From positions 1 through 24,071 of IMG/VR virus record IMGVR_UViG_3300037146_000041: a stretch of 24,071 nucleotides of DNA; one strand, written 5' to 3'. Source of the stretch: a virus. Both the position numbers and the translations under genes were made by a program. Below, one piece after another: positions 389 through 23,713 of this stretch (its first letter is position 1; each line of letters starts with the position of its first letter). The notes beneath the pieces were generated by a model. It saw nothing but the letters and a program-made list of their open reading frames with translations, ran no database searches and was not told where the DNA came from.

Positions 389-1282
389 TCAGAAACCGTC
401 GATTTCTTTCAAAATCTCATCAACAGTTTCAATTTTAGGCGCGTCTAACAAACTATTTGCAAACGCCAACAACATGCTCGTAGAAAATTCTTTTAGCACG
501 TTTTGAGCGTCGTCGATAATTTCGCCGCCTATCGTGCAGCCCTGGGGCAATTGGTGGTTGTAGCCTCTCAAATCGGCGTTGCCGCCAATCATGCAGCCCT
601 GGGGCAATTGGTGGTTGTAGCCTCTCAAATCGGCGCTGCCGCCTATCGTGCAACCCTGGGGCAACGGGTGGTCGTAGCCCTCCAACCAAGCGTTGCCGCC
701 TATCGTGCAGCCCTGGGGCAATTGGTGGCCGTAGCCCGTCAAATCGGCGCTACCCCTTATCGTGCAGCCCTGGGGCAATTGGTGGCCGTAGCCTCTTAAA
801 AAAACGCTGCCGCCTATCGCGCAACCCGGCGACAACGGGTGGTCGTAGCCCGCCAAATAGGCCGTCCCGCCAATCGTGCAGCCCTGGGGCAATTGGTGGT
901 CGTAGCCCTCCAACCAAGCCATGCCGCCTATCGTGCAGCCCTGGGGTAATTGGTGGTTGTAGCCTGTCAAACAGGCCGCCCCGCCAATCGTGCAGCCCTG
1001 GGGTAATTGGTGGTTGTAGCCTGTCAAATAGGCCGTCCCGCCAATCGTGCAGCCCTGCGGTAATTGGTGGCCGTAGCCCGTCAAATAGGCGTCGCCGTCT
1101 ATCGTGCAACCCTGGGGCAATGGGTGGTTGTTTTTTATCAGTTTCTTTATCGTTTTCTTCTTCAAGCTGTCCTTAATGACCTCGATTTCGACTTTTGCAA
1201 AAAGTCTTTCACTCCCTATTTCTCGCGTCAAAACAGCTAAATACTCAACTTGTGAATCTTGATTTTTAAATAAGCTATACAT
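389..1282 (-). CDS. Tandem-repeat protein with 19-residue Cys-containing repeats (predicted beta-solenoid)
   Basis: 297 residues. Residues 1-52 form a charged, probably helical N-terminal part. Residues 53-242 are ten complete 19-residue repeats of consensus H(Q/P)LPQGCTIGGxAxLxGY(D/N/G), followed by an 11-residue partial unit (243-253) and a helical C-terminal cap of about 44 residues. Every unit keeps Cys at the same position (59, 78 and so on to 249), which would put a ladder of eleven Cys along one face if the repeats stack as a solenoid. Pro, Ile, Gly-Gly, Ala and Leu are nearly invariant; the variable positions are just before and after the conserved Leu. The start at 1282 has a GGAGA site, and the gene overlaps the preceding HTH gene by 8 nt. 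Function is unknown; binding or structural roles, or counter-defence, are guesses. There is no signal peptide. Confidence 0.85.
   Translation of the reverse strand: MYSLFKNQDSQVEYLAVLTREIGSERLFAKVEIEVIKDSLKKKTIKKLIKNNHPLPQGCTIDGDAYLTGYGHQLPQGCTIGGTAYLTGYNHQLPQGCTIGGAACLTGYNHQLPQGCTIGGMAWLEGYDHQLPQGCTIGGTAYLAGYDHPLSPGCAIGGSVFLRGYGHQLPQGCTIRGSADLTGYGHQLPQGCTIGGNAWLEGYDHPLPQGCTIGGSADLRGYNHQLPQGCMIGGNADLRGYNHQLPQGCTIGGEIIDDAQNVLKEFSTSMLLAFANSLLDAPKIETVDEILKEIDGF
524..1126 (-). repeat. 57-bp coding tandem repeat array, ten full units plus a partial
   Basis: Ten 57-bp units and a 33-bp remnant encode the 19-residue repeats. Conservation extends to third codon positions, which points to recent unit duplication or gene conversion. 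Unit number is expected to vary between related phages. Confidence 0.9.
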
Positions 1283-5164: not shown

Positions 5165-6133
5165 ATGTCGCAAAACGAAGAGTTTATGTCCGCGCTTGGA
5201 GCGGATTTGCCAAAAGAAAAAAGATTAATCGTTTGCGGATTCGCAGGCGATCCGAATAAAGTCGGGCCATCCGCCTGGAAGCCGCGTCCATGGTCGGCAG
5301 ACAAGGATTTGATGTACGACTGTGGAATTTTGCCGAAAATGAACGCTTACGTCACCATCAGCAGCTTCGGGCGTGCTGCTGATAATTCGTTCCGCCGTAG
5401 AGGCGCATGTTTCGACGCAGGTCGGGCGCTGTTTATCGATGATGTCGGAACTGGCCTCGGGTCGAAAGTGTCTCCAGATATCATCAAGGCTTTGCCGCCT
5501 ACATCGATTGTCGAAACGTCCCCGAACAATCATCAGTGCTTGTACATCCTGGACAGGCCGGAAACGGATATGGGGCGGTTCGACGGATTAATCAGGGCGT
5601 TCATCTCTGCGCAATTGCTCGGCCATGATCCAGGGCAAGCCGGTGTGACGCGGGTGGCGCGGATCCCCGGTTATGTCAACGACAAAGCGAAATATGGCGG
5701 CGCGTTTAAAGTGACTTTATTGGAATTAAACGAAAAGCGGTATTCAATCGATGCGCTGCTCAAAGCGTTTAAACTAACCATTAACGGGACGATTGTCAAG
5801 CCGCTGCGCTTGGTTAGCGAGGATGCGATTGAGCGTAATCGCATGTTCCTCGTTTATTGGAAATGGCTTTATGCGCGAGGAATGTTAAAAAGAGACACGC
5901 CCGACAGCTCCGGGTGGATGGAGGTTCACTGCCCTTTCATCGGCAATCATACCGATAGAGCCGACACCGGCGCGGCCATTCGGGAGCCTGCGCCGGAAAA
6001 CGGATATTTCGGGTCTTTTCGTTGTCACCATGGCAACTCTGTTTGTTCCAGCGCAGGATGGCATGAGTTGACGGATTGGATAAACGAAACGTCCGGGGAG
6101 GAATTGGAGAATGCAGCGGAAGATAACGGTTGA
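5165..6133 (+). CDS. Archaeo-eukaryotic (RepB-like) DNA primase with C-terminal zinc site
   Basis: 322 residues. Motif order fits the AEP/RepB-primase superfamily: ALFIDDVGTG (88-97) supplies the catalytic acidic pair, ETSPNNHQCLYIL (117-129) is the S-x-x-x-x-Q/H segment, and RVARIPGYVNDK (163-174) is the R-x-P-G-x-x-N-x-K box typical of phage and plasmid primases. The C-terminal region (about 250-305) carries CPF..NHTDR (C256), FRCHHGNSVC (C287, C294) and a trailing WHEL (H300), which suggests a zinc-binding module like those that help primases pick a template. It would make primers for phage replication with the helicase at 6411. GAGGG precedes ATG 5165. An exact TAAAGTNACTTTA palindrome lies inside at 5707-5719. 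Confidence 0.8.
   Translation: MSQNEEFMSALGADLPKEKRLIVCGFAGDPNKVGPSAWKPRPWSADKDLMYDCGILPKMNAYVTISSFGRAADNSFRRRGACFDAGRALFIDDVGTGLGSKVSPDIIKALPPTSIVETSPNNHQCLYILDRPETDMGRFDGLIRAFISAQLLGHDPGQAGVTRVARIPGYVNDKAKYGGAFKVTLLELNEKRYSIDALLKAFKLTINGTIVKPLRLVSEDAIERNRMFLVYWKWLYARGMLKRDTPDSSGWMEVHCPFIGNHTDRADTGAAIREPAPENGYFGSFRCHHGNSVCSSAGWHELTDWINETSGEELENAAEDNG
5707..5719. promoter_or_regulatory. TAAAGTNACTTTA palindrome, copy 1 (inside the primase gene)
   Basis: TAAAGTGACTTTA, a perfect 6+1+6 palindrome, is identical apart from the central base to the copies at 8970-8982 and 20579-20591. It is in coding sequence, so it may be fortuitous or a true binding site. Confidence 0.4.
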
Positions 6134-6185: not shown

Positions 6186-6359
6186 ATGGGAGCGAAGCGA
6201 TCGGAAGAAATGAGAACGGCCCTGAAATTAATCGCGTCAGGGGAAAGCGTTACGCAAGCCGCGAGGAGATCCGGCGTCCTGCCGACATCTCTTCATAGAG
6301 CGAAAAGAGATGAAGAGATGAAGAGAAAAAGAATGTCAGCGCGCTTGTCTATGAAATAG
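6186..6359 (+). CDS. Small helix-turn-helix protein, 57 aa
   Basis: A near-perfect AAAGGAGG site precedes ATG 6186; the frame of 57 codons ends in TAG at 6357-6359. Residues about 8-45 (MRTALKLIASGESVTQAARR, then SGVLPTSLHRAKRD) follow the homeodomain-like/Psq helix-turn-helix pattern 'AL..I..G.SVtqAAr..GV..tsL.RA'. The C-terminal tail is Lys/Arg-rich. It sits between primase and helicase, 51 nt before the helicase start, and could bind the nearby AT-rich origin or act as an operon regulator. No catalytic part is present, so it is not a transposase. Confidence 0.75.
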   Translation: MGAKRSEEMRTALKLIASGESVTQAARRSGVLPTSLHRAKRDEEMKRKRMSARLSMK

Positions 6360-6410: not shown

Positions 6411-7952
6411 ATGGAAACCGAAACGCCAACTCAGATTGAGATGCAAGCGCGTGTAGAAGCGCGTGAAAAAAACTTAATCGAAGCAACAAAAAAACAGAGG
6501 CGGTTAGCAAAAATAGAAGATTACATTTATGACAAATCTCAAGAAAAATTTTGGGATTTGGAAGATGGCACCCTGAACGGCCCTGATGCCGTAGACGCAT
6601 CTATCCCTATTGAGAGGTGGCGGCTAATTAACAGTGAATCTGAGTCACCCATGGAACAAGGGGATTCAGCTGCGCCAAAAAAAGCCGGAAGACCTAAAAC
6701 AAAAAAAGCAAAATTGATAAAGCCTAGCGAAGACATAAAGCGCGTGGAGCGGAATCAGTTCGTCGAAGGTTCCACATGGTGGCCTGGAAAGCCTCAAATC
6801 ATCGAAAATTTTTTCGTCGGAGAAGCGGGAGCTTCCCCAGTTCCCGGAAGACGTTTCTATAATCAATACGTTCCGCCGCCAGACCTGAAAGGTGATGTGG
6901 ACATGGCGTGGCCTTGGATAAATCACGTAAAAAAGCTTTGGCCTGACAAAGAAGAGCACAATGTTTTCTTTGATTATTGCGCGCACATGGTGCAAAAGAC
7001 ATATGAAAAATGCAATATCGCGATAATTTTGTCGGGCGAAACGCGAATAGGGAAAGATGTCGCTCTCCAACCCGTCATAAAATCGATGGGGCACTGGAAC
7101 TGCCGCAGAATAGGGCCGGATCAATTGTTTCTTCGATTCCAGCCTTTTTTGAAAACAGCGTTACTCGTCATCGATGAAGTAAAACCTGTGGCCAAAGCAC
7201 AGGCGATTGCGATGTACAACATTTTAAAGCCGTTGTGCGCCGCGCCGCCTGACACGCTACCGATAGAATATAAAGGCATCAACCAGCAATACGTCATCAA
7301 CATTCTGCGGATTATCATGACGACAAACGATCCTTTCGCTATGCACATCCCCGAAGAAGATAAACGGATGTTTATCATGCATTCCCCATTAGCCTCAGAA
7401 TGGTTCAAAAGAGAAGATGATGAAAGCTACTTTAAAAATCTTGTGGCATGGATGGATAAAGTAGGGTTCGCAGCGGTCAACGCATGGCTCATGCAGCGAG
7501 ACATATCCTCGTTCGATCCCAAAGCATCGGCAAAAGACACCGTGATGAAACAGAGTGTGTGCAATACGTGGGGGGTACCGGAAGACGCTTTCGATGCAGC
7601 GCTTGATCGATTGGGAAGACCACAGATTGTATTCGGGTTCGAGTTGCTTCGCGACGGATTCGACCATGCAGATAAAGTTCGGGAGGTGGTCTCAGCCACG
7701 CGCTTACTGCATAAACGGATGCAACAGGCCGGGTACGTTTCAAAAAATCCGCAGTCGGGGCAAGAAAAGTGGATTTTTCGGGGCGGCACGAGGATGGAAA
7801 GGTCGCGTGTAGCTTTCGTGAGGAAAGAAATGCTTTCCGACGAAAATCTTAATGAAAAAATAATCGCGCACGGAGAAAATGTCGTGAAAAACGCCAGTCA
7901 GATGTCAAACGGGAAAGTTTTTGAGTTAAATAAAGATAGATTTGAAAAATAA
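6411..7952 (+). CDS. SF3-type replicative helicase (DUF5906-like ATPase) with AT-hook-like segment
   Basis: 513 residues. Walker A is SGETRIGKD (208-216), Walker B LLVIDEV (251-257), and sensor/motif C IIMTTNDP (301-308), the order seen in superfamily 3 phage and plasmid helicases. The flanking 'YCAHMVQ' and 'IPEEDKRMFIM' segments also fit phage DUF5906-type proteins. The primase domain usual in such proteins is absent; it is a separate upstream gene (5165-6133). The N-terminal 110 residues are charged and include KKAGRPKTKK (90-99), an AT-hook-like core. It is expected to unwind DNA at the origin, and the AT-rich inverted-repeat region follows directly after its stop. AGGAA precedes ATG 6411. 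Confidence 0.85.
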   Translation: METETPTQIEMQARVEAREKNLIEATKKQRRLAKIEDYIYDKSQEKFWDLEDGTLNGPDAVDASIPIERWRLINSESESPMEQGDSAAPKKAGRPKTKKAKLIKPSEDIKRVERNQFVEGSTWWPGKPQIIENFFVGEAGASPVPGRRFYNQYVPPPDLKGDVDMAWPWINHVKKLWPDKEEHNVFFDYCAHMVQKTYEKCNIAIILSGETRIGKDVALQPVIKSMGHWNCRRIGPDQLFLRFQPFLKTALLVIDEVKPVAKAQAIAMYNILKPLCAAPPDTLPIEYKGINQQYVINILRIIMTTNDPFAMHIPEEDKRMFIMHSPLASEWFKREDDESYFKNLVAWMDKVGFAAVNAWLMQRDISSFDPKASAKDTVMKQSVCNTWGVPEDAFDAALDRLGRPQIVFGFELLRDGFDHADKVREVVSATRLLHKRMQQAGYVSKNPQSGQEKWIFRGGTRMERSRVAFVRKEMLSDENLNEKIIAHGENVVKNASQMSNGKVFELNKDRFEK

Positions 7953-8007
7953 TTAAGATTTATAAATTATATTAAAACCGTTTTATATACTTTTTAGTTA
8001 TCATTTA

Positions 8008-8031
8008 AAACCCACAAACCCTCATACCCTC
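8008..8031 (+). repeat. Left iteron array, three 8-bp units
   Basis: AAACCCAC, AAACCCTC and ATACCCTC in tandem. The units share A-x-ACCC-x-C, facing the units at 8141-8164. Confidence 0.65.
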
Positions 8032-8054
8032 TTTCATATACCGGAAGATAAAAT
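8031..8054. repeat. Left arm of the origin inverted repeat
   Basis: 24 bp ending in GATAAAAT. Read on the minus strand it matches 8117-8140 at 19 of 24 positions, including ATTTTATC and CGGTATAT. Confidence 0.65.
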
Positions 8055-8116
8055 TAATTAAATATAAAAAAGATAACGTAAATTGTATAAAAGACATCGA
8101 AAAAGTAATTTAATTT

Positions 8117-8140
8117 ATTTTATCAAACGGTATATAAATG
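8117..8140. repeat. Right arm of the origin inverted repeat
   Basis: ATTTTATC, three variable bases, CGGTATATAAATG; reverse complement partner of 8031-8054. Confidence 0.65.
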
Positions 8141-8164
8141 GCGGGTTCTCGGGTTCGCGGGTTT
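8141..8164 (-). repeat. Right iteron array, three 8-bp units in opposite orientation
   Basis: GCGGGTTC, TCGGGTTC and GCGGGTTT in tandem. On the minus strand each reads (A/G)AACCCG(A/C), equivalent to the left array. Confidence 0.65.
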
Positions 8165-8218
8165 TTGATTGATTTTGCGCAACATTGACTTTTAATTTGA
8201 AATAGGATAGATAAAATT

Positions 8219-8635
8219 ATGAGCAAAGAAAATGTGTGCGGCTTAAACATTGTGCATGCGCAGCACTATGCTATCGATGTCAGGCTGCAAAATTGGGCGC
8301 GTTGGGCGCGGCCTTGCGGTCAAGTCTCGAAAGTGTCGCCGATGTTTAAATATTATCGCCCTCGGCTGGAAAACATCGATATGGCCGAGGGAAGCGCCGA
8401 TACGCGGCATAGTCTGGGGGAGATCGATGTCCTCGATGCGATTGAGATGGAAAAGAAGATTGTGCGGCTTAGGTCGATTCAACGAATTGTCATTGTTTGG
8501 TATTACATTGACGATAAAGGGTCGCCAGGCCGTTTAAAAAGGCGGCTGGCTAGGGGGTACTCGACAATCGCTTCGACGCTGCACGCGGCCCGTGATAGCC
8601 TTTGCAGCGGGAAGTTTCATGCGGATGTCGTTTGA
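8219..8635 (+). CDS. Q-antiterminator/sigma-region-4-like late regulator (candidate), 138 aa
   Basis: ATG 8219 follows AGGATAG. The N-terminal region has VRLQNWARWARP and an MFKYYRP segment; the middle is DVLDAIEMEKKIVRLRSIQR with RIVIVWYYIDDKGSP, and the end has a helix-turn-helix-like GRLKRRLARGYSTIASTLHA. This order (a D-A-x-E-x-E helix, a hydrophobic W-Y-Y helix, then an HTH and A-R-D-x-L) resembles short phage proteins annotated as antitermination Q-like or sigma-70 region 4-like. Its place just before the packaging genes suits a late-gene activator. The function is inferred; no direct motif proves antitermination. Confidence 0.6.
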   Translation: MSKENVCGLNIVHAQHYAIDVRLQNWARWARPCGQVSKVSPMFKYYRPRLENIDMAEGSADTRHSLGEIDVLDAIEMEKKIVRLRSIQRIVIVWYYIDDKGSPGRLKRRLARGYSTIASTLHAARDSLCSGKFHADVV

Positions 8636-9676: not shown

Positions 9677-9698
9677 CGCGCACTACCGGTAGTGTGTG
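9677..9698 (+). promoter_or_regulatory. Strong stem-loop after the terminase small-subunit gene
   Basis: CGCGCACTACCGGTAGTGTG and two more bases. A perfect 14-bp DNA palindrome extended by G-U and C-G pairs in RNA. It lacks the U tract of an intrinsic terminator. Confidence 0.45.
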
Positions 9699-9866
9699 TG
9701 TCAGCAAAAACGCAAATTGTTTCACGAAAATTCCCTAGATGTAGTGTTGCGCGAAGAAAAACGTTGCAAGTCGTTGATTTATAAGCGTGTTGCAGCGCAA
9801 TATTCGCATAACATACATTATGTAAAATGGAAGTAGAGAGCTTTCTCAACTCTTGATGCGGTTGAT
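9677..9866. other. 190-bp gap between terminase genes with hairpins
   Basis: No convincing gene is seen. Directly at the stop of the small-subunit gene, 9677-9698 can form a 9-bp RNA stem (two G-U pairs) around the perfect 14-bp palindrome CACTACCGGTAGTG (9681-9694); no U run follows. A second small dyad, CATAA-N6-TTATG, lies in the later part, before the nine-codon mini-frame MEVESFLNS that overlaps the region ahead of the large-subunit start. The gap could hold a processing site, promoter or packaging (pac/cos) signal; I cannot decide. Confidence 0.4.
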
Positions 9867-11600
9867 ATGCGCGATGTTGAAAAAGCAAAGTTGCTCCCTG
9901 CCGAAACTTATAATTGGCAAGCGTCGGACATAGCTGGAGAATTTAAACGCCGTGCGGCAATGCTTCAAAGAATTCGAAAAGAGTTCGACGCAAAGGATTT
10001 GGCCGGATTAAAGTCGTTTTATAAAACGAATCCCGCGAAATTTATTGATGACTGGGGCATGACGTTTGACCCTCGCAACATCGAGATAGGATTACCTGTC
10101 GCGATACCGTTCAAATTATTTCCGAAACAAATCGAATGGATCGAGTGGATTGTCGCTAATTGGAAGAATCGGCAACCTGGAATTACCGAAAAATCGCGTG
10201 ATATGGGCATGTCGTGGTTGTCGGTGTCGTTAGCTTGCACGCTGTGCTTGTTCTACGATGGCATGGCGATAGGGTTTGGATCGCGCAAAGAGGAATATGT
10301 GGATAAAATCGGCGCGCCGAAATCCTTATTCCACAAAGCGCGGCAGTTTATGGACAGCCTGCCGCATGAATTTAGAGGCGGGTGGGAGCGCGATAAGCAT
10401 GCGCCTCACATGCGGATAATATTCCCCGAGACTGAGGCGGTTATTGCCGGGGAATCTGGCGACGGCATAGGACGCGGCGATAGAACATCGATTTATTTCG
10501 TCGATGAATCGGCATATTTAGAGCATCCAGAACTTGTCGAAGCGTCGCTTTCGCAGACGACGAATTGCAGGCAGGACATCAGCACGCCGCATGGATTAGC
10601 GAATCCTTTTGCGCAGAAGCGTCACGCAGGTAGATTACCGGTATTCACTTTTCACTGGCGCGACGATCCGCGCAAGAACGAAATTTGGTACGCAAAGCAA
10701 CAGGCAGAACTTGATCCTGTCACGCTGGCGCAAGAAGTCGATTTATCGTATTCTGCCAGCGTGACAGGTGTCGTTATTCCGCACCAATGGGCGATGGCGG
10801 CTATAGACGCGCATTTAAAGCTTCAAATCAAGCCTACAGGCGCACGAATCGCAGCGTTGGACGTAGCAGACGAAGGGCGAGATAAAAACGCCCTGTGCGG
10901 CTCGCATGGCGTTTTGATTGAGTATGTAAAGGAGTGGAGCGGAAAAGGCAGCGACATATTCGATACGGTGGAACATGCCTTTGAGCTGTGCGACGCAAGC
11001 GGTTACGCACTGTTGCGTTATGATGCGGATGGCCTAGGCGCAGGTGTAAAAGGCGATGCGCGCATCATCAACGAGACGCGGAAAAAAATGCAACGGCAGT
11101 TGTTGGAGGTTGAAGCGTTTAGAGGCAGCGCAAGCGTTTTTAATCCGCTTGGCGAGGATGTGAAAGGCCGAAAAAACGAAGACTACTTTATGAATTTGAA
11201 GGCACAAGCGTGGTGGTCGCTGCGCACTCGATTTCAAAAGACTTTCAGGGCTGTTGTCGAGGGTGCGCCGTTTGATCCTGACGAAATAATCTCGATATCT
11301 TCGAGTTTTGCGGATCACATGAAGCTTATCGGAGAGCTTTCTCAGCCGACGTATAAGCAGAATGGCGTTGGCAAGATAGTGATCGACAAATCCCCGGACG
11401 GAACAAGATCGCCAAACCTTGCCGATTCGGTGATGATTAAATTTGCTCCGATCAAACGTCAGCAGATGATTATCAACCCGACAGCCGTGCGACAGATGGC
11501 GGCGGGTAAGGCGATAGTTTTGACGAACAAGCCGTCGGCAGAACAGCGCCCGAAACAAAATATGGTTGACGCCTTGAAGGGATTTGGGCGGACAAGATAA
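9867..11600 (+). CDS. terL: Terminase large subunit (ATPase-nuclease)
   Basis: 577 residues. The N-terminal ATPase has the deviant Walker A ITEKSRDMGMSWL (106-118) typical of one terminase group, Walker B IYFVDESAY (209-217) and coupling motif region TTNCRQDISTPHG. The C-terminal RNase H-like nuclease has the expected three acidic sites: AALDVADEGRDKNAL (first Asp 332), DADGLGAG (Asp 386) and NLADSVMI (Asp 520). It packages DNA into proheads and cuts the concatemer, working with the small subunit upstream and the portal downstream. ATG 9867 has no strong Shine-Dalgarno. Length fits the family. Confidence 0.95.
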   Translation: MRDVEKAKLLPAETYNWQASDIAGEFKRRAAMLQRIRKEFDAKDLAGLKSFYKTNPAKFIDDWGMTFDPRNIEIGLPVAIPFKLFPKQIEWIEWIVANWKNRQPGITEKSRDMGMSWLSVSLACTLCLFYDGMAIGFGSRKEEYVDKIGAPKSLFHKARQFMDSLPHEFRGGWERDKHAPHMRIIFPETEAVIAGESGDGIGRGDRTSIYFVDESAYLEHPELVEASLSQTTNCRQDISTPHGLANPFAQKRHAGRLPVFTFHWRDDPRKNEIWYAKQQAELDPVTLAQEVDLSYSASVTGVVIPHQWAMAAIDAHLKLQIKPTGARIAALDVADEGRDKNALCGSHGVLIEYVKEWSGKGSDIFDTVEHAFELCDASGYALLRYDADGLGAGVKGDARIINETRKKMQRQLLEVEAFRGSASVFNPLGEDVKGRKNEDYFMNLKAQAWWSLRTRFQKTFRAVVEGAPFDPDEIISISSSFADHMKLIGELSQPTYKQNGVGKIVIDKSPDGTRSPNLADSVMIKFAPIKRQQMIINPTAVRQMAAGKAIVLTNKPSAEQRPKQNMVDALKGFGRTR

Positions 11601-11767: not shown

Positions 11768-13368
11768 ACTGGAGAAAGCGGATTGCAGACTGGCTGTCGC
11801 CGCCTGAGGTTAAAGTCGTTTTACCAGCAATCGTTGCGCCTGTCGCGCCGGTAAAAAAGCGCGTAAAGATTTCTGCCGATGCAGTGGCAACGATGCACCG
11901 GAAAACGAAACGCGAACAAAGAGCAATTGCCGAAAGGTTTTTTGCCCCGGCAGAACCGCCTCCAGGCGTGTTGCCGAAAGGCGTAACAGGCAAAAAATTG
12001 GCGATGGACGCCGGATATCAGGGCGGCTCTTACGCTGATATGACTGCGCTAGGCAACGTTAATCAAGCGTTCAATCAAGGCTATGCGTGGCCCGGATTCA
12101 TGACGCTTGCGGATTACATGCAGGTGACGGAATATCGAAAACCTGCTGAAATTTATGCGCGTGAAATGACGCGGCGCTGGATCAAGTTTCAGGCTGTTGG
12201 CGAAGAAGACAAGTCCGACAAAATAAAACTGATCGAAAAAGAGTTCAAACGCTTGAATGTACAAGGCGTATTTCACGAGGCGATTTGGAAAGCGGAAGGA
12301 TTCGGGCGCTCGCAGATATTCATCGATGTCGGTTTGAAATCCGATCAATTGGACGAGCATGAGCTGACGACTGAGTTAATTGAGTCGAAGAGCAAAATAG
12401 GGTTGAACTCGATCAAACGGTTAACGGTTATCGAACCGGTTTGGTGTTACCCGAATCGTTATAACGCTGATGACCTGTTAGATGAGACGTTTTATAAGCC
12501 GATCAGCTGGTTTGTGATGGGCAAGGAAGTGCACAGTTCGCGACTGCTTACTTTTGTGCCGCATCCTGTTCCCGACATTTTAAAACCTGCGTATTCGTTT
12601 GCCGGGTTGTCGTTGCCGCAGATGATGACGCCCTACGTGGACAACTGGCTTCGGACGCGGCAATCAGTTAGCGATCTTGTTCACTCTTTCACGGTGTGGA
12701 CTCTTTCAACGGACATGTCCGCGATATTAAACAATGAAGGTGCAGAAGACTTCTTTGCGCGCATGCAAATATTCAATCTCGGGCGCGATAATCATGGTGT
12801 TAATGCCATAAACAAGGATACGGAAGAATTTTCCAACGTATCCGCAAGTTTGGCAGGGCTGGCTGATCTACAGGCGCAGGCGCAAGAGCAAATGAGCGCT
12901 CCTACCGGGGTGCCTTTGGTCTATCTGACAGGCATCACACCGAAAGGCTTGAATGCCTCTAGTGAAGGCGAAATAAAGATTTTCAAAGACAATTGCTCGG
13001 CAAATCAGGAAATTTATACGCCGTTATTGAGTAAAGTGCTGAATCTGGTCATGCTCTCGACTCTCGGTGAAATCGATTCCGACATTGGGTTTAAATGGGT
13101 CGAGTTGAATTCTCCGACAGAAACTGAACTATCCGCGATGCGCAAGACAGAAACTGACACAGCCGTGGCGCTGATCGATGCCGGTGTCATTTCGCCGCAG
13201 GAAGAACGGACGAGAATTGCGCAGCAGGAGGACAGTCTTTACACCGGACTGGACTTGAACGCAAAGATCGAACCTCCTGCCGACCCTTCGCAAGACCCAG
13301 ACATGCACGACATGCACGAGCCTGAAGAAAAGGATGACAAGAATAATGACGAGCATGCTGACGATTGA
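11764..13368 (+). CDS. Portal protein, DUF1073 family
   Basis: 534 residues. The N-terminal 85 residues are basic and variable. Then follow the family features: a 'W.G...LA.Y.q..eYR.PaeIYArEMTRRW' helix region (about residues 110-145), 'EAIWKAEGFGRSQIFIDV' (about 178-195), the Y-P-N-R-Y-N wing, 'GKEVHSSRLLTFV' and 'SAPTGVPLVYLTGITPKGLN' (around 380-395). The C-terminal region is acidic. The portal ring forms the DNA gateway at the head vertex and docks the terminase. The neighbours on both sides (terL, head morphogenesis) agree. Databases group DUF1073 proteins with the Acb1 anti-CBASS family, but I see no paired H-x-T/S motif here, so only the portal role is supported. Confidence 0.9.
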   Translation: MNWRKRIADWLSPPEVKVVLPAIVAPVAPVKKRVKISADAVATMHRKTKREQRAIAERFFAPAEPPPGVLPKGVTGKKLAMDAGYQGGSYADMTALGNVNQAFNQGYAWPGFMTLADYMQVTEYRKPAEIYAREMTRRWIKFQAVGEEDKSDKIKLIEKEFKRLNVQGVFHEAIWKAEGFGRSQIFIDVGLKSDQLDEHELTTELIESKSKIGLNSIKRLTVIEPVWCYPNRYNADDLLDETFYKPISWFVMGKEVHSSRLLTFVPHPVPDILKPAYSFAGLSLPQMMTPYVDNWLRTRQSVSDLVHSFTVWTLSTDMSAILNNEGAEDFFARMQIFNLGRDNHGVNAINKDTEEFSNVSASLAGLADLQAQAQEQMSAPTGVPLVYLTGITPKGLNASSEGEIKIFKDNCSANQEIYTPLLSKVLNLVMLSTLGEIDSDIGFKWVELNSPTETELSAMRKTETDTAVALIDAGVISPQEERTRIAQQEDSLYTGLDLNAKIEPPADPSQDPDMHDMHEPEEKDDKNNDEHADD

Positions 13369-13966
13369 AGAAGTTGCTGATTGCTATCGACGAGATAGAA
13401 GGAAGATTTTCCTTTTTATTTGTCGCTACCGTTCCGGCAGAGAAGCGGAAGCGGAAGAGATCGTTCAAGACGCTTTTTTGACAGCCTTGACGAAGAGAGA
13501 GAGTTTTAACGGCGAAAGCGCCTTATCAACGTGGATTAATTCTATAGCGTTGAATCTTCTCAAGAATAAATTTAGACAAGAAAAGAAAATGCCGTTTGTA
13601 GACGTTTATCATGCTGACGATCTTCCTGGTAATTTTGATGATGGCTTTGATTTGGAATCAATGCTTGATCTAAGAGCCGATCCGGCGCGGATTTGCGAAA
13701 ACAGAAGCGACATTGAAAAGGCAGATGCGGCGCTTGATAATCTTTTTAGTTGCGGCATTCGTAGGCGCTGTGCGCCAGCTAAGCAAAAGCTGCACAAGGC
13801 GATCTTCGTGTCTTGGCTTAACACGGGCATGGGTCTAACAGGCTCATCTCATAAAGTTGATGAATATCAGTTGATTGCCGACGAGCATCGAGTTCCTGTC
13901 GGGACGGCTAAATCGAGTATCAGCCGAACGCGAAAAAAGATCAAAGAGGCGATTTGCGAATCATGA
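13346..13966 (+). CDS. ECF-like sigma-70 family sigma factor
   Basis: 206 residues from ATG 13346 (AAAGGA upstream); in-phase ATGs at 13334 and 13355 are alternatives, and the start lies inside the end of the portal gene. Region 2 is clear: REAEAEEIVQDAFLTALTKR then SALSTWINSIALNLLKNKFR matches the sigma-2 core helices that bind RNA polymerase and the -10 element. Region 4 is near the C-terminus: DEYQLIADEHRVPVGTAKSS followed by ISRTRKKIKEAI, the '..IA..l.vPvGTvkSri.RAR..L' helix-turn-helix. The 2-4 linker is long (about 80-90 residues) and contains a small Cys-containing basic segment. It may redirect host polymerase to phage promoters. It is unusual to find one inside a morphogenesis operon. 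Its stop overlaps the next start as ATGA. Confidence 0.8.
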   Translation: MTSMLTIEEVADCYRRDRRKIFLFICRYRSGREAEAEEIVQDAFLTALTKRESFNGESALSTWINSIALNLLKNKFRQEKKMPFVDVYHADDLPGNFDDGFDLESMLDLRADPARICENRSDIEKADAALDNLFSCGIRRRCAPAKQKLHKAIFVSWLNTGMGLTGSSHKVDEYQLIADEHRVPVGTAKSSISRTRKKIKEAICES

Positions 13967-14142
13967 CTAAAGAAGATTTGGCGACAATGGAGGCGGCAGT
14001 TTCCGATTTTAACGACAATTTGCGCAGCTTTCGCCTTCAAGTCGCGAAAATGTGCATCGTTTTAGAGCAGCAGGAAGATGCTGCGCACAAGCTGAACGCA
14101 AGTTTAATCGAAGCGAAAATTAATTTAGGATTGCCAGGATGA
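13963..14142 (+). CDS. Small helical protein, 59 aa, unknown
   Basis: ATG 13963 overlaps the sigma-factor stop as ATGA; its own stop overlaps the next start in the same way. The product is a predicted coiled helix (LATMEAAVSDFNDNLRSFRL then KMCIVLEQQEDAAHKLNASL). No family is recognised. It may be a capsid-associated or sigma-associated small protein. Confidence 0.65.
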   Translation: MTKEDLATMEAAVSDFNDNLRSFRLQVAKMCIVLEQQEDAAHKLNASLIEAKINLGLPG

Positions 14143-15800
14143 GTTCGATTTTTACAGGATTGACCACTGCGCAAATATCGGCATTAGGCACCGCTCCGAT
14201 TGCTGCGGCAGGGACGGACGACATCCTTGGGCTGTTTCCTGACCAAGTGCCCGGATTAACGACTGCGCAAATTCCTGCTTTCGTGACTGCGACGCTTACG
14301 GATATGCCCTTGTTAGATGTTGCGGCTTTGTCGTCTCAACAAGTCCAAGCGTTAAGCACGGCGCAAATCAATGAGGCGTTGACGACCGCGCAAGTTGCGT
14401 CAATCTCAATAGGCGCAGTCCCAGGCTTGACGACGGCGCAAATTTTGGCGTTGACGACCGCTCAAGTGACCGCGCTGACTCCTGCGCAGATTAATCAAGG
14501 TTTAACGACGCTTCAGACGTCATCTCTACCGACGAATGATTTTTCCGTATTAACGACTGCGCAGATTGGCGCGTTTAGTCCGCCGCAAGTGGCAGCGATC
14601 AACTCGGCACAATTTGAAGCGCTAACGACAAACCAGATTTCAAGCGGACTCATCCCCGATCAAATTCATTCTTTTAGTACCGCCAATATCGCGTTGCTGA
14701 CGACTAGCCAAGCTGTTGCGCTTACGTCTGACGCGATTACAGCGCTAACATCGGCACAGGTTGCGACACTGACGGCGACCGATGTCGCTGCGCTAACCAC
14801 TTTGCAAGCAACTAGCTTTGGTTCGAATTTAGCTGGACTCACGACAGCGCAGGTTGCATCCGTAAGCACCGCGCAGTTGAATGCGTTGCCGGTTGCCGCT
14901 GTGATTGCATTGCCGTCTGGCGATTTTGCGGCGATGTCCACTGCACAAATTGCCGCACTCAACACGAATCAGGTTTTTCGCGGACTGACGACTGCCGATG
15001 CGCAAGCGCTGACGACCGCGCAAATTCAGGCAATGACTACAAGTCAAGTGGCATCGTTGTCGGCGTTTAGTCTTGCAGCACTAAACACGTTACAGGCGTC
15101 AAAATTGCTTTCCGCGCAGATTCAGGCGTTGACGACTGCACAAATCCCTGCGGTTTCCACGACAGGGTTGACGACCGCGCAGATTCAAGCGTTGCTTACG
15201 AATCAAATTCAAGCGCTGTCCGGGGCGCAAATTGCTGGTCTAACGACCGCGCAATTTGCCAAGTTGACGACAAGCCAGATTCAAGCGTTGACGTCGAGTC
15301 AAATAGCTGCGCTGACGATTGCAGAATGGACAGCGATGCCGACTGCACAAGCTGCTGCGCTGACTGCCGCGCAAATTTCAGCAATTCCTACTTTAATTTT
15401 GCCTGGCGCGTCTGCTTATCCTTTGCGCATTTCAGGTAACTCGCAATTGCCGATTGCAATCTCGGTGCCGTCTGTCGTTCCGACCGGAACGACAGCGCAA
15501 TTGCCGGTCATTCCTATGTCGCAATACAACATGTTGAATGGGGCGATTCAGGGGTATGGCGGTTTGACATTCTCTTGGACGGCGAGCGCCGCGACCACAG
15601 CGACGATTGAGCAGTCGTCTGATTATCTCAATACGTTAAGCACAGGCTCGTCTGTCGATGCGGTCGGCACTGGCGGCGCGAATGAATTCGCTACGATCAC
15701 GACGAACGGCGCAAATTTTACGACGGTTACGATAGCGAATTCGTCTGGAATTAATGCTATAATTTCCGCCGCGTCCGCAATTTTGCTGCCGAATAACTAA
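14139..15800 (+). CDS. LTTAQI-repeat structural protein, 553 aa
   Basis: Residues about 7-420 are roughly forty short imperfect repeats with core L(T/S)(T/S)xQ(I/V), spaced 8-11 residues apart, rich in Thr, Ala, Gln and almost free of charge and Cys. The C-terminal part (about 425-553) is a separate domain that starts AYPLRISGNSQLPIAISVPS and has beta-rich Gly/Ser/Thr segments (GGLTFSWTASAATTATIEQS). Proteins with LTTAQI/LSTAQV-type repeats occur among large phage and bacterial surface proteins, but I do not know a proven function. Position after the portal and before head morphogenesis suggests a virion or head-associated fibre or length-variable protein. ATGA overlap with the previous gene. 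Confidence 0.75.
   Translation: MSSIFTGLTTAQISALGTAPIAAAGTDDILGLFPDQVPGLTTAQIPAFVTATLTDMPLLDVAALSSQQVQALSTAQINEALTTAQVASISIGAVPGLTTAQILALTTAQVTALTPAQINQGLTTLQTSSLPTNDFSVLTTAQIGAFSPPQVAAINSAQFEALTTNQISSGLIPDQIHSFSTANIALLTTSQAVALTSDAITALTSAQVATLTATDVAALTTLQATSFGSNLAGLTTAQVASVSTAQLNALPVAAVIALPSGDFAAMSTAQIAALNTNQVFRGLTTADAQALTTAQIQAMTTSQVASLSAFSLAALNTLQASKLLSAQIQALTTAQIPAVSTTGLTTAQIQALLTNQIQALSGAQIAGLTTAQFAKLTTSQIQALTSSQIAALTIAEWTAMPTAQAAALTAAQISAIPTLILPGASAYPLRISGNSQLPIAISVPSVVPTGTTAQLPVIPMSQYNMLNGAIQGYGGLTFSWTASAATTATIEQSSDYLNTLSTGSSVDAVGTGGANEFATITTNGANFTTVTIANSSGINAIISAASAILLPNN
14157..15400 (+). repeat. Coding array of short LTTAQI-type repeats
   Basis: Units of 24-33 bp with the recurring DNA core 'ttgacgac(t/c)gcgcaaat'. 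Copies such as those at 15001-15060 and 15121-15260 are close to identical, so slippage or recombination is likely to change repeat number. Confidence 0.8.
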
Positions 15801-20593: not shown

Positions 20594-23500
20594 ATGTCAG
20601 TTGACGAAAAAATCAAAGGCGCAGGAATAATGCTGGTCACGCCTGAAGGAGAGGCGCTATTCCTATTGCGCTCTCCCGACGCGAATCATCCGAACGAATG
20701 GGATTTTCCAGGCGGCAGAGCTGACGAAGACGAAACGCCGGAAGAAACCGCCAAGCGCGAAACGCGAGAAGAGATCGGCGCAATGCCGTATGGCGAGCTA
20801 GAACAGCTAGCCGACACGTCTAGTAAAGACGATAGCGGCAGCGATGTGGATTTCATTACCTACCGCATGTTTGTTCGTCATAAATTTACGCCGAAAATCG
20901 ATAAATCGGAGCATACGGCATTCGTTTGGCGCAAGTTGGTAGATGCTCCTGAGCCGATGCACCACGGCATGCGAGAAGTGGTTGACGCAGCTATGGGGAA
21001 GATGGCGAAGGATGCTTCACAGCATTGGATAACGTCCCAAACCGGTACGCATTTGTTGCTGAACGGCGAGGGTGAAGTGATTGGCGGCGCTGGCGGGAGC
21101 TTAAACGGAAAGAAACTTTCCCCGAAAAGCAAAAGCAAGGATGTAACAAAACTTTTGGGGTATTCGCCGAAAGCAAGTGAGCAACCGTCTAAAAAAATCG
21201 ATTTAAAGACTGCGTTTAATGACTTGGAAACGTCAGAATTTAAAGGAGAGCTTTCCGACGAGCAAAGGAAAAGCATTCAGAAGAACGAGGATTTGTACAA
21301 AAAGCATGGCCCGAAAGGCGAAGGCTCGCGCTCTCAATGGAAAGAACAAGTTAAAAGCGGAAAGTTCGACCATCTTCTAAAAGAACATGAAGAGGTCGTT
21401 CAGAAAAACGCAGAAGAAGCAAAAGAGCGTGCAAGAACAGAAAGAGAAAAGAGGGCGGAGCCTTATCGACAAGCCGCGATAAAAAGGGCGGAAATCGAAG
21501 CGAAACGGAAATCTGAAGAAGCGAAACGGAAATCTGAAGCGGCTGCTGCAAGGCAGGAAGAAAGAGAAAAATCTCTGGCGAAGCCTTTTGAAAAGCCGAC
21601 TGAGCATGAAACCTTGACTGTCCCGAAGAAAATAATAAAAGAAACCGACGCTGCGTATGGAGTTGAAAATCCCGGTCAGGGAGAAAAGGACGTGCTGTGG
21701 ATTCCAAAAAGCGCGTCGAAAGCGCATGGATACGAAATAAAATCGATGGCTCCATGGTTGGCTGACAAATTAAATTTCGGGACACATGAGCGTCAAGAGA
21801 GAAAACAAAAAGAAGCTGTGCAAAGGACGTACTTGAATGTGAAATACGACGACAAAGACCATGCGAAGAAGCATGGCGCAAGATGGGACGCAGACAAAAA
21901 GAAGTGGTATCACTCTGGAGGGGAATTGCCGAAAGAATTGGAAAAGTATTCGTCGAATGCCGCATCTCCTCAGACTAAGGCTGTTTCTGGAGCGCAGAAT
22001 CAATCGGCAACTGTGAAAAGGCAAATGCCGACAACTGGACGGATTGATGAAAACGATCCGTCGATATGGGGACACGAGTTGTTGGGTCATGAAGGCGAGT
22101 TGTGGGCTGATTTTCATAGGAGGCATGCCCCGCGCTATGAACCGGCTTCTGCCGCTGAGGTCGAATTCGATTCCGCCTTGGGAGAAGACGCAGGATTTTA
22201 TTGCGGATACACGCAAGATCAAATCGCTGTCATGAATCGGGAGAATGCGCAGGATTCCGATTTTAAAGAGTCGGATCACCCTCGCGCCAACGATTCCCTA
22301 ACCTTCGATAAAGCCTCTGTCAGAACAGTAGACCAAGATGGGCGGATGCATATCGCTTTGACGCATATCAGCAAAGCGAACGTCTGCCAATATGCAGGAG
22401 CAGAAATCCCGGATTATCAAAAACTGGGATTGCAAGCCGATAAAGTGTATTTGCTCTATCGTGACCCGGAAGAATTGAAAAAGGGCGCGTCAACGGCGAA
22501 TAACATCCCTCTGTTGAACGACCATGTTGCGGTTGATGTGACAGATCACAAGCCGGATTCGATCGTCGGAGCGACAGGCACGGACGCAGTGTTCAACGCG
22601 CCGTACCTGGATCAATCGTTAGTAATTTGGACGAAAGACGCAATCTGCGGTGTAGAAACCGGTCGGCAGCAGGAAATCAGTTGCGCATATTATTACCGCC
22701 CCGACATGACTCCAGGCGTTTCGCCGGACGGCAGTCATTACGATGGCGTGATGCGCGACATTAAGTTTAACCATATTGCTTTGGTGCAAGTTGGGCGTGC
22801 TGGACATGATGTTAGAGTGGCAAGCGACAGTAAAATCAATTTCAACCCAGGAGTTTTAACTATGAGCAAGCTAAGTAAAAAGGCGGTTCTCGCGCACGGA
22901 GCTTTGCTCGCAGTGCTTACCCCAAAGATGTTGGCTGCGGACTCGCAGATCGACTTAAATAAAATCCTTGAAGGCGTCAAGCGGAAAAACTGGCTTGAAA
23001 AGAAGCCGGGGATTATTGCCGCTGTCAAGCCGCATTTGGCGGCGGATGCCGATTTGAAAGATATCGTCGCGCTACTGGACAAACTTGATTCTGAAAAGCC
23101 TGACGATGACAATGTAGCGATGGACGATCCCGGCCCAAAGTGCGAAAGTATCCTTGGCATGCTTCGTGGGAAAATCTCTGACGAAGATTTAATGCAGATT
23201 GAAAGCATGCTATCCGCCAAGCCGGTCGAAAAAGCGAAAGCGAAGGACGAACCGACACAGACCCCGGGCGCGGCAACTGCGAATCCTGGCGGTAAGAAGG
23301 ACAAGGACGCTGCAAAAGGCATGGATGACAAAGAGAATAAGGAAGATATGATGGATGCGAAAGAAATGAAGAAAGCCATGGATAAAGCGATTCAACTTGC
23401 TTGCGATGCGACGGAAAAGAAAACCGAAGCGAAGGTTATGGCGAATATGCGCGCTATCGTTGAAGCCGAAGAGTTCATCAAGCCTTACGTCGGCAAGCTT

Positions 23501-23713
23501 GTTGCCATGGATAGTGCCGAAGCGGTTTATAAAGCCGCGCTTGAAGCGATGAAAATCGATATTAAGGATTTGCACCCGAGCGCCTATAAATCTGTTTTAG
23601 CCGCGCAACAGAAGCCGGGCGAAGCGCATAAATCGCGCATTGCGCAAGACGCGCAGCCGCAAGGCGATGGCATGGAAAAGGCGTTTCCCGAACTTCTCCG
23701 TCTAGTCAAATAA
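20594..23713 (+). CDS. Nudix hydrolase-DUF5710-DUF2213 protease-scaffold polyprotein, 1039 aa
   Basis: Domains in order: a Nudix domain (1-135) with a perfect Nudix box, G41-x5-E47-x7-R55-E-x-x-E59-E60-x-G62, so hydrolysis of a nucleoside diphosphate-linked compound is likely; THLLLNGEGEVIGGAGGSLN (about 151-170), a motif of phage head proteins; a Lys/Glu/Ala-rich coiled coil (about 264-335); DUF5710 (about 411-455, YLNVKYDDKDHAKKHGARWD); and DUF2213 (about 525-755), the Mu-like head maturation protease, with probable His644 (PLLNDH) and Ser696 (EISCAY) in the HK97/S78-like places. The C-terminal part (757-1039) is a charged helical scaffold-like region with its own internal start (22862). 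Expected to cut itself and other head proteins. ATG 20594 lacks a Shine-Dalgarno. ATG 20630 has AGGA but would remove the first strand of the Nudix fold. Confidence 0.8.
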   Translation: MSVDEKIKGAGIMLVTPEGEALFLLRSPDANHPNEWDFPGGRADEDETPEETAKRETREEIGAMPYGELEQLADTSSKDDSGSDVDFITYRMFVRHKFTPKIDKSEHTAFVWRKLVDAPEPMHHGMREVVDAAMGKMAKDASQHWITSQTGTHLLLNGEGEVIGGAGGSLNGKKLSPKSKSKDVTKLLGYSPKASEQPSKKIDLKTAFNDLETSEFKGELSDEQRKSIQKNEDLYKKHGPKGEGSRSQWKEQVKSGKFDHLLKEHEEVVQKNAEEAKERARTEREKRAEPYRQAAIKRAEIEAKRKSEEAKRKSEAAAARQEEREKSLAKPFEKPTEHETLTVPKKIIKETDAAYGVENPGQGEKDVLWIPKSASKAHGYEIKSMAPWLADKLNFGTHERQERKQKEAVQRTYLNVKYDDKDHAKKHGARWDADKKKWYHSGGELPKELEKYSSNAASPQTKAVSGAQNQSATVKRQMPTTGRIDENDPSIWGHELLGHEGELWADFHRRHAPRYEPASAAEVEFDSALGEDAGFYCGYTQDQIAVMNRENAQDSDFKESDHPRANDSLTFDKASVRTVDQDGRMHIALTHISKANVCQYAGAEIPDYQKLGLQADKVYLLYRDPEELKKGASTANNIPLLNDHVAVDVTDHKPDSIVGATGTDAVFNAPYLDQSLVIWTKDAICGVETGRQQEISCAYYYRPDMTPGVSPDGSHYDGVMRDIKFNHIALVQVGRAGHDVRVASDSKINFNPGVLTMSKLSKKAVLAHGALLAVLTPKMLAADSQIDLNKILEGVKRKNWLEKKPGIIAAVKPHLAADADLKDIVALLDKLDSEKPDDDNVAMDDPGPKCESILGMLRGKISDEDLMQIESMLSAKPVEKAKAKDEPTQTPGAATANPGGKKDKDAAKGMDDKENKEDMMDAKEMKKAMDKAIQLACDATEKKTEAKVMANMRAIVEAEEFIKPYVGKLVAMDSAEAVYKAALEAMKIDIKDLHPSAYKSVLAAQQKPGEAHKSRIAQDAQPQGDGMEKAFPELLRLVK
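22849..22864 (+). promoter_or_regulatory. Internal ribosome binding site and start for the scaffold
   Basis: AGGAG, 8 nt, then ATG in frame with the surrounding gene. It lies at the boundary between protease and scaffold regions, which makes a chance match less likely. Confidence 0.6.
22862..23713 (+). CDS. Nested scaffold-like protein from internal in-frame start, 283 aa
   Basis: ATG 22862 is codon 757 of the large gene and has its own AGGAG (22849-22853) 8 nt upstream. The product opens MSKLSKKAVLAHGALLAVLT, then has charged helices with many Asp/Glu/Lys (DDKENKEDMMDAKEMKKAM) and an MRAIVEAEEFIKPYVGKLVA region near the end, typical of phage scaffolding regions. In lambda (C/Nu3) and Mu (I/Z), the scaffold is likewise the C-terminal part of the protease gene made from an internal start. 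The nested product would fill the prohead and be degraded. Both forms share the TAA at 23711-23713. Confidence 0.65.
   Translation: MSKLSKKAVLAHGALLAVLTPKMLAADSQIDLNKILEGVKRKNWLEKKPGIIAAVKPHLAADADLKDIVALLDKLDSEKPDDDNVAMDDPGPKCESILGMLRGKISDEDLMQIESMLSAKPVEKAKAKDEPTQTPGAATANPGGKKDKDAAKGMDDKENKEDMMDAKEMKKAMDKAIQLACDATEKKTEAKVMANMRAIVEAEEFIKPYVGKLVAMDSAEAVYKAALEAMKIDIKDLHPSAYKSVLAAQQKPGEAHKSRIAQDAQPQGDGMEKAFPELLRLVK

Follow-up and report, generated by a model that had tools for sequence, protein, structure and literature searches.

A mirror-symmetric candidate replication origin beside the SF3 helicase gene of an uncultured tailed phage and its relatives

The stretch of viral DNA analyzed here (the window; 24,071 nucleotides) belongs to the same virus as IMGVR_UViG_3300037242_000178 (62,017 bp), with one mismatch over 24,071 bp. 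Its replication module begins with the gene for a RepB-type primase of 322 residues (5165–6133, plus strand; Pfam RepB_primase, E 3.7e-13; PHROG 4861 'DNA primase', 1.3e-34). This is followed by a small possible HTH reading frame of 57 residues (6186–6359, plus strand), read from the sequence and without a match in a PHROG search, and by the gene for an SF3/D5-type helicase of 513 residues that is the proposed initiator (6411–7952, plus strand; Pfam DUF5906, 2.9e-8). The element described below lies 3' of the helicase in a gap at 7953–8218, between the helicase stop at 7952 and the next gene start at 8219, with its first iteron 55 bp past the stop. Its position beside primase and SF3 helicase genes, as given in the initial annotation, is borne out by the two Pfam matches and by Foldseek. 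The same annotation called this the only sizeable non-coding gap; at 266 bp it is the window's largest stretch without a 60-residue reading frame, but another of 239 bp separates primase and helicase.

The window also contains tailed-phage late genes, including terminase, portal and head maturation protease. Positions 20594–23713 encode a single protein in which an N-terminal NUDIX hydrolase domain is fused to a C-terminal head maturation protease. A phage-encoded sigma-70 region 2 protein (13334–13966) lies between the portal and structural genes, and the product of 14139–15800 is rich in short LTTAQ-type repeats and matches only a PHROG with unknown function. Tandem repeats of 57 bp at 1–195 and 389–1282 (minus strand) encode PLPQGCTIGG-type units of 19 residues; they recur close to either end of the 62-kb contig, where the assembly may have broken.

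The predicted structure of the helicase (pLDDT 73) was compared with known structures using Foldseek, which matched the C-terminal region of NrS-1 polymerase (E 9e-16), SaPI5 PriRep1 (E 2e-7) and the poxvirus E5/D5 proteins (approximately 1e-7 to 1e-6). No SaPI Rep is among the sequence-level PDB matches. The modeled fold is that of an SF3/D5-type helicase, the class of self-loading initiators. Its C-terminal domain (7554–7949, plus strand; AlphaFold pLDDT 84) is composed of helices followed by β-hairpins and is the proposed iteron-binding domain, a function assigned by analogy with Cch2 (PMC7581432). Similarity of this domain to winged helices is weak and not significant (best E 0.07), which counts against the origin model, and a winged-helix assignment is suggestive only.

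The element is organized around a single dyad. The left iteron set (8008–8031, plus strand) consists of three 8-bp repeats with ACCC starting at 8010, 8018 and 8026, and the right set (8141–8164, minus strand) consists of three inward-facing 8-bp repeats with GGGT starting at 8143, 8151 and 8159. The three ACCC/GGGT pairs share a common centre at 8086, from which they are exactly equidistant. Inside the iterons lie two inverted-repeat arms of 31 nt (8033–8063, plus strand; 8108–8138, minus strand) that are 84% complementary (26/31 paired). They are separated by a 44-nt centre (8064–8107; 80% A+T), which with the inner arms is the proposed site of melting. If a single 1-nt indel is allowed, arm pairing extends through the iterons to about 59 nt per side. 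On the minus strand, the right iterons read AACCCGAGAACCC, as in relatives, and the right half contains AACCCGCGAACCC-like repeats (full read GCGAACCCGAGAACCC), the iteron of the relatives' family. The near-symmetric element of inverted repeat and opposed iterons described initially is thus confirmed and proves larger than first described: the 24-bp arms (19/24 matched) and the 62-bp core under-read it, the core overlapping the arms given here.

The AT-rich stretch at 8048–8124 is 87% A+T. Across the parent contig (61,942 positions), only 14 start points give a 75-bp stretch less stable than that at 8048, and the least stable 75-bp stretch of all (window 7926–8000) adjoins the element. The inverted-repeat score is 61.0, compared with 20.5 ± 4.3 for dinucleotide shuffles, none of which reached 61.0 in 2000 trials. 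Ranked genome-wide by raw score the element comes first, and three other sites have a similar z as calculated from per-window shuffles; those of the three that were looked at are palindromes or hairpins with short loops, and they lack iterons. In the 62-kb parent contig, which may be incomplete, each strand has just one ACCC triplet at period 8, and both triplets are the iterons of the element. A scan of IMG/VR with the pattern of one arm matched a single contig, once per strand. Formation of a stem-loop at the element is possible (DNA fold z −3.3). Two other symmetric sequences were observed: a perfect 32-bp palindrome, ACACGCTCTTCGAAACGTTTCGAAGAGCGTGT, near reverse-complement coordinate 59071 of the parent contig, and a perfect 14-bp inverted repeat, CCTGTCACGCTGGC, within the terminase large subunit gene (window ~10716–10769).

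Single-protein searches of IMG/VR recovered only the same virus, and alignment-based searches were therefore used for relatives. No named phage with nucleotide similarity to the window was found. A primase alignment search identified about 45 relatives with primase identities of 44–58% and helicases that are mostly 45–51% identical. Most relatives with helicases in this range have a counterpart element, usually starting 9–230 bp 3' of the helicase stop and in a few cases about 620 bp or 2.6 kb from it. The design 3' of the helicase is shared by many of them: inward-facing iterons of 8–10 bp, with a consensus near ACCCGAGAT, are followed by an AT-rich core, often with a TATTGTT-like box between the two.

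A half-element model built from 16 hand-picked halves located facing pairs near primase–helicase genes in 22 further non-redundant loci, more than half of which had supplied no seeds (L027, L039/L121, L043, L048/L124, L052, L057/L117, L058/L111/L113, L070/L156, L115, L120, L123 and L137). The window's own element, with its more diverged left iterons, goes undetected by the model, a point against the origin reading; on layout, position and right-half iterons, the window element is placed in this family. Further observations count against the origin model. The element of L052 and of L156 is placed upstream of the primase rather than 3' of the helicase, in the opposite orientation as read from its two halves, and in L052 it directly adjoins terS. 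In the sequence examined of L038, L051, L053, L054 and L066, no element was detected despite a close helicase.

In an unbiased scan, the 450 nt following the helicase on its 3' side were searched for inverted repeats (z > 4), with 432 windows drawn at random from these loci as background. Such repeats are present in 13 of 32 window-like relatives (at least 43% identity), in 10 of 24 relatives at 26–42% and in 7 of 26 Lindbergviridae-like phages, versus 8 of 432 background windows. The figure of 13/32 is a lower bound because the scan misses elements found by the half-element model. P4, with its annotated facing iterons, served as a positive control and scored z ~6.4. The initial annotation held that an origin would be refuted by arms and iterons that are not conserved in close relatives; the element is conserved, a result that favors the origin. 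As judged from sequence, an element of this kind is present in dozens of uncultured relatives. Other repeats were seen near these genes. In L035 the sequence immediately preceding the primase (~5840–6005) contains a strong inverted repeat, part of which resembles repeated GAAAGGAACTTG leader sequences. Xanthomonas phage FoX7 (L016, 9126–9220) and Burkholderia phage WTB (L015, 10029–10147) have an inverted motif in common, ATCAAYGACTTA, located in the gap that follows the helicase on its 3' side.

The two halves of the element diverge together; covariation of both arms was a check put forward in the initial annotation. Among 23 elements, left and right halves of the same element are more alike than swapped halves, with 228 of 20,000 permutations reaching the observed sum, a value that is only indicative because the elements are phylogenetically related. 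For the left half of the window element, its own right half ranks first as a match. The stronger evidence comes from phages with helicases of 29–40% identity, in which the iteron motif varies from phage to phage while the two sides of each element have the same or almost the same motif: AATCGGC/AATCGCC in L154, CCGCGCGG in L152 and L159, ACGCGGAA in L149, AACCCA in L147, CGCCCG in L103 and ACCCATAG in L067.

The element is very probably the replication origin of the phage and the cis-site of a primase–SF3 helicase–ori module that would function as the PICI/SaPI origin and P4 crr do. An origin, as first proposed, is the best-supported reading given that layout, position and co-divergence are conserved and packaging is disfavored; origin function itself we infer. 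Drawing on PICI, pRN1 and the Pbunavirus proposal, we suggest that the ACCC iterons would be bound by the helicase via its C-terminal domain, with the mirror layout seating an inward-facing helicase assembly, probably hexameric, on either side. The two initiator assemblies would converge on the AT-rich core, which would melt, and helicase rings would be loaded on opposite strands. Priming of synthesis by the RepB-type primase would then give divergent forks, such that the origin would fire bidirectionally. A switch in GC skew, which had been put forward as a check, is absent at the element; the minimum lies near window position 2981, 5 kb away, where gene direction switches, and this counts against the origin model.

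A packaging site is another reading: as a cos or pac site, the element would have its iterons bound by the small terminase subunit and its core cut by the large subunit. The element does lie between the replication and terminase genes. In L033, L034 and L044, the genes that come next after it are (HNH)–TerS–TerL, and in L052 the element, terS and terL are kept together in an order that is reversed relative to the primase. This adjacency made a cos/pac site a serious alternative. However, when TerL of the window was compared by blastp with those of L034 and L044, no mutual similarity was detected, although the helicases of the three are 45–63% identical, within a range of 45–70% for phages sharing the element. 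The two linkages were separated using phages with an L044-type TerL (80–100% identical) and at least 5 kb of upstream sequence: the element is present in 5 of 5 with a close helicase and in 0 of 17 without (Fisher p = 4e-5), two of the 17 having only a distant (27–29%) helicase. L171, L180, L189 and L196 have an element and no helicase; their contigs stop a short way upstream of the element, before primase–helicase genes would be reached under the L052 arrangement.

The inferred genome ends point the same way. Among contigs with an L033-type TerL (L244–L323), 49 of 80 start 495–560 nt before TerL, suggesting a fixed cos-type end just upstream of terS, between HNH and TerS. In L033, the phage in which this was tested, the inferred end falls at 10305–10370, about 0.5 kb from the element at 9697–9816. 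The element tracks the helicase and not the terminase, and the inferred L033 end is outside it, so that a packaging site is disfavored and in our estimate improbable.

The iterons could alternatively be operators, or part of a terminator region, between early and late genes, through which a phage regulator controls the genes from 8219 onward. The element is positioned between replication and structural genes, and the gene at 8219 has a weak antitermination-Q-like match (E 0.005). Against this, promoter-like sites in the region are about as frequent as in shuffles and the one terminator-like site is close to the shuffle count, and on these numbers a promoter or terminator was rejected. The absence of an Rfam match to the element also speaks against regulation, and an RNA element was rejected on the same ground. 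In addition, the downstream genes vary between relatives while the element persists. Regulation as the sole function is accordingly very unlikely. Origins often overlap with regulation, and for this reason control of neighboring genes may be an added role of the element.

A centromere-like parS for the ParB-like protein of the phage (2079–2858; PHROG 1033, E 1.7e-52), or another partition or recombination site, would fit the frequent occurrence of inverted repeats in partition sites but is extremely improbable: the ParB-like gene is 5 kb from the element, no homologue was found in the element-bearing loci of relatives and it is the primase–helicase pair, unlike the ParB-like gene, that is always near the element, so a ParB site was rejected.

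For the wider interpretation we see roughly even chances. It holds that a large family of full tailed phages, mostly uncultured, replicates from a PICI-like two-sided origin in which iterons and helicase diverge together under a strict mirror layout. Such a family would provide an initiator-to-origin recognition code and two opposed helicase rings, and would suggest exchange of modules between phages and satellites. To our knowledge, the PICI-like two-sided origin had been considered confined to phage satellites, and this family may be an evolutionary link between satellites and full phages. Few tailed phages have known replication origins, and GC skew locates origins poorly. Because both halves diverge together with the neighboring initiator, the sequence itself yields candidate origins for dozens of phages, which supplies an origin annotation for phages with RepB-primase/SF3 modules. 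Recognition and opening of origins by SF3 helicases is a problem common to poxviruses, papillomaviruses and parvoviruses, for which these elements are a natural data set.

Several known systems share parts of this arrangement. In plasmid pRN1, an inverted repeat of about 100 nt (21-nt stem, 58-nt loop) just 3' of the prim-pol/SF3 gene is the essential origin (PMC4234260); the long inverted repeat and its position are common to both, but pRN1 lacks the iterons of the window element. The Cch2 protein of SCCmec is an SF3 helicase that binds iterons downstream of its own gene via a C-terminal domain and unwinds them (PMC7581432). The iterons of the window are likewise downstream of an SF3 helicase gene, and C-terminal binding, demonstrated for Cch2, is predicted here by analogy. 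SCCmec differs in having only three iterons, with no two facing sets, and its inverted repeats are dispensable for binding.

Among phages, the stem-loop proposed for BIP-1 did not stand out in the inverted-repeat scan. The Pbunaviruses (PB1-like) have a related primase and SF3 helicase pair and a long gene-poor stretch after the helicase. The published study of this group proposes that the helicase is an initiator that loads itself as in SaPIs; it does not locate the origin and puts forward only GC-skew minima elsewhere (PMC12390725). In Pseudomonas phage F8 (L018, 8436–8582), facing AAATTCCC repeats surround a low-GC core 3' of the SF3 helicase. This exact pattern was not found in the other Pbunaviruses checked, and because it is seen in F8 alone the facing repeats of this group are a lead only.

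The closest parallels are found in satellites. In P4, the crr site directly follows the primase–helicase α gene on its 3' side and has short iterons of opposite orientation that face one another from the two sides of a core (P4 annotation). P4 crr differs in being a duplicated 120-bp unit with TGTTCACC type I iterons, whereas the window iterons are ACCC-based, and in its pairing with a second cis site (ori) about 4.5 kb away, whereas the window has a single element in a 62-kb contig that may be incomplete. Primase and helicase are fused in P4 and encoded by separate genes here. In PICI/SaPI origins, the sequence immediately 3' of rep consists of an AT-rich region with an iteron set on each flank, and this segment replicates a plasmid (PMC6092414). 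The window matches them in the order primase, SF3 helicase, element, in the placement of the element immediately 3' of the helicase and in the two iteron sets around an AT-rich region, a likeness of described layout. For the helicase the likeness is at the level of fold, where the model matches SaPI5 PriRep1, with no SaPI Rep among the sequence-level PDB matches. The differences are that the window comes from a phage contig of 62 kb that itself encodes terminase, portal and head protease, rather than from a satellite island that needs a helper, and that exact dyad symmetry, long arms and a RepB-type primase are found here. The initial annotation did not recognize the layout as a described phage origin, yet it is known from PICI/SaPI origins and P4 crr, and the element is therefore not categorically new. 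The literature searched, consisting mostly of papers outside subscription, contained no description of such an element in phages with their own packaging genes. What is new is that this satellite-type layout, in an exactly mirror-symmetric form whose iterons diverge together, recurs among tailed phages equipped with packaging genes of their own.
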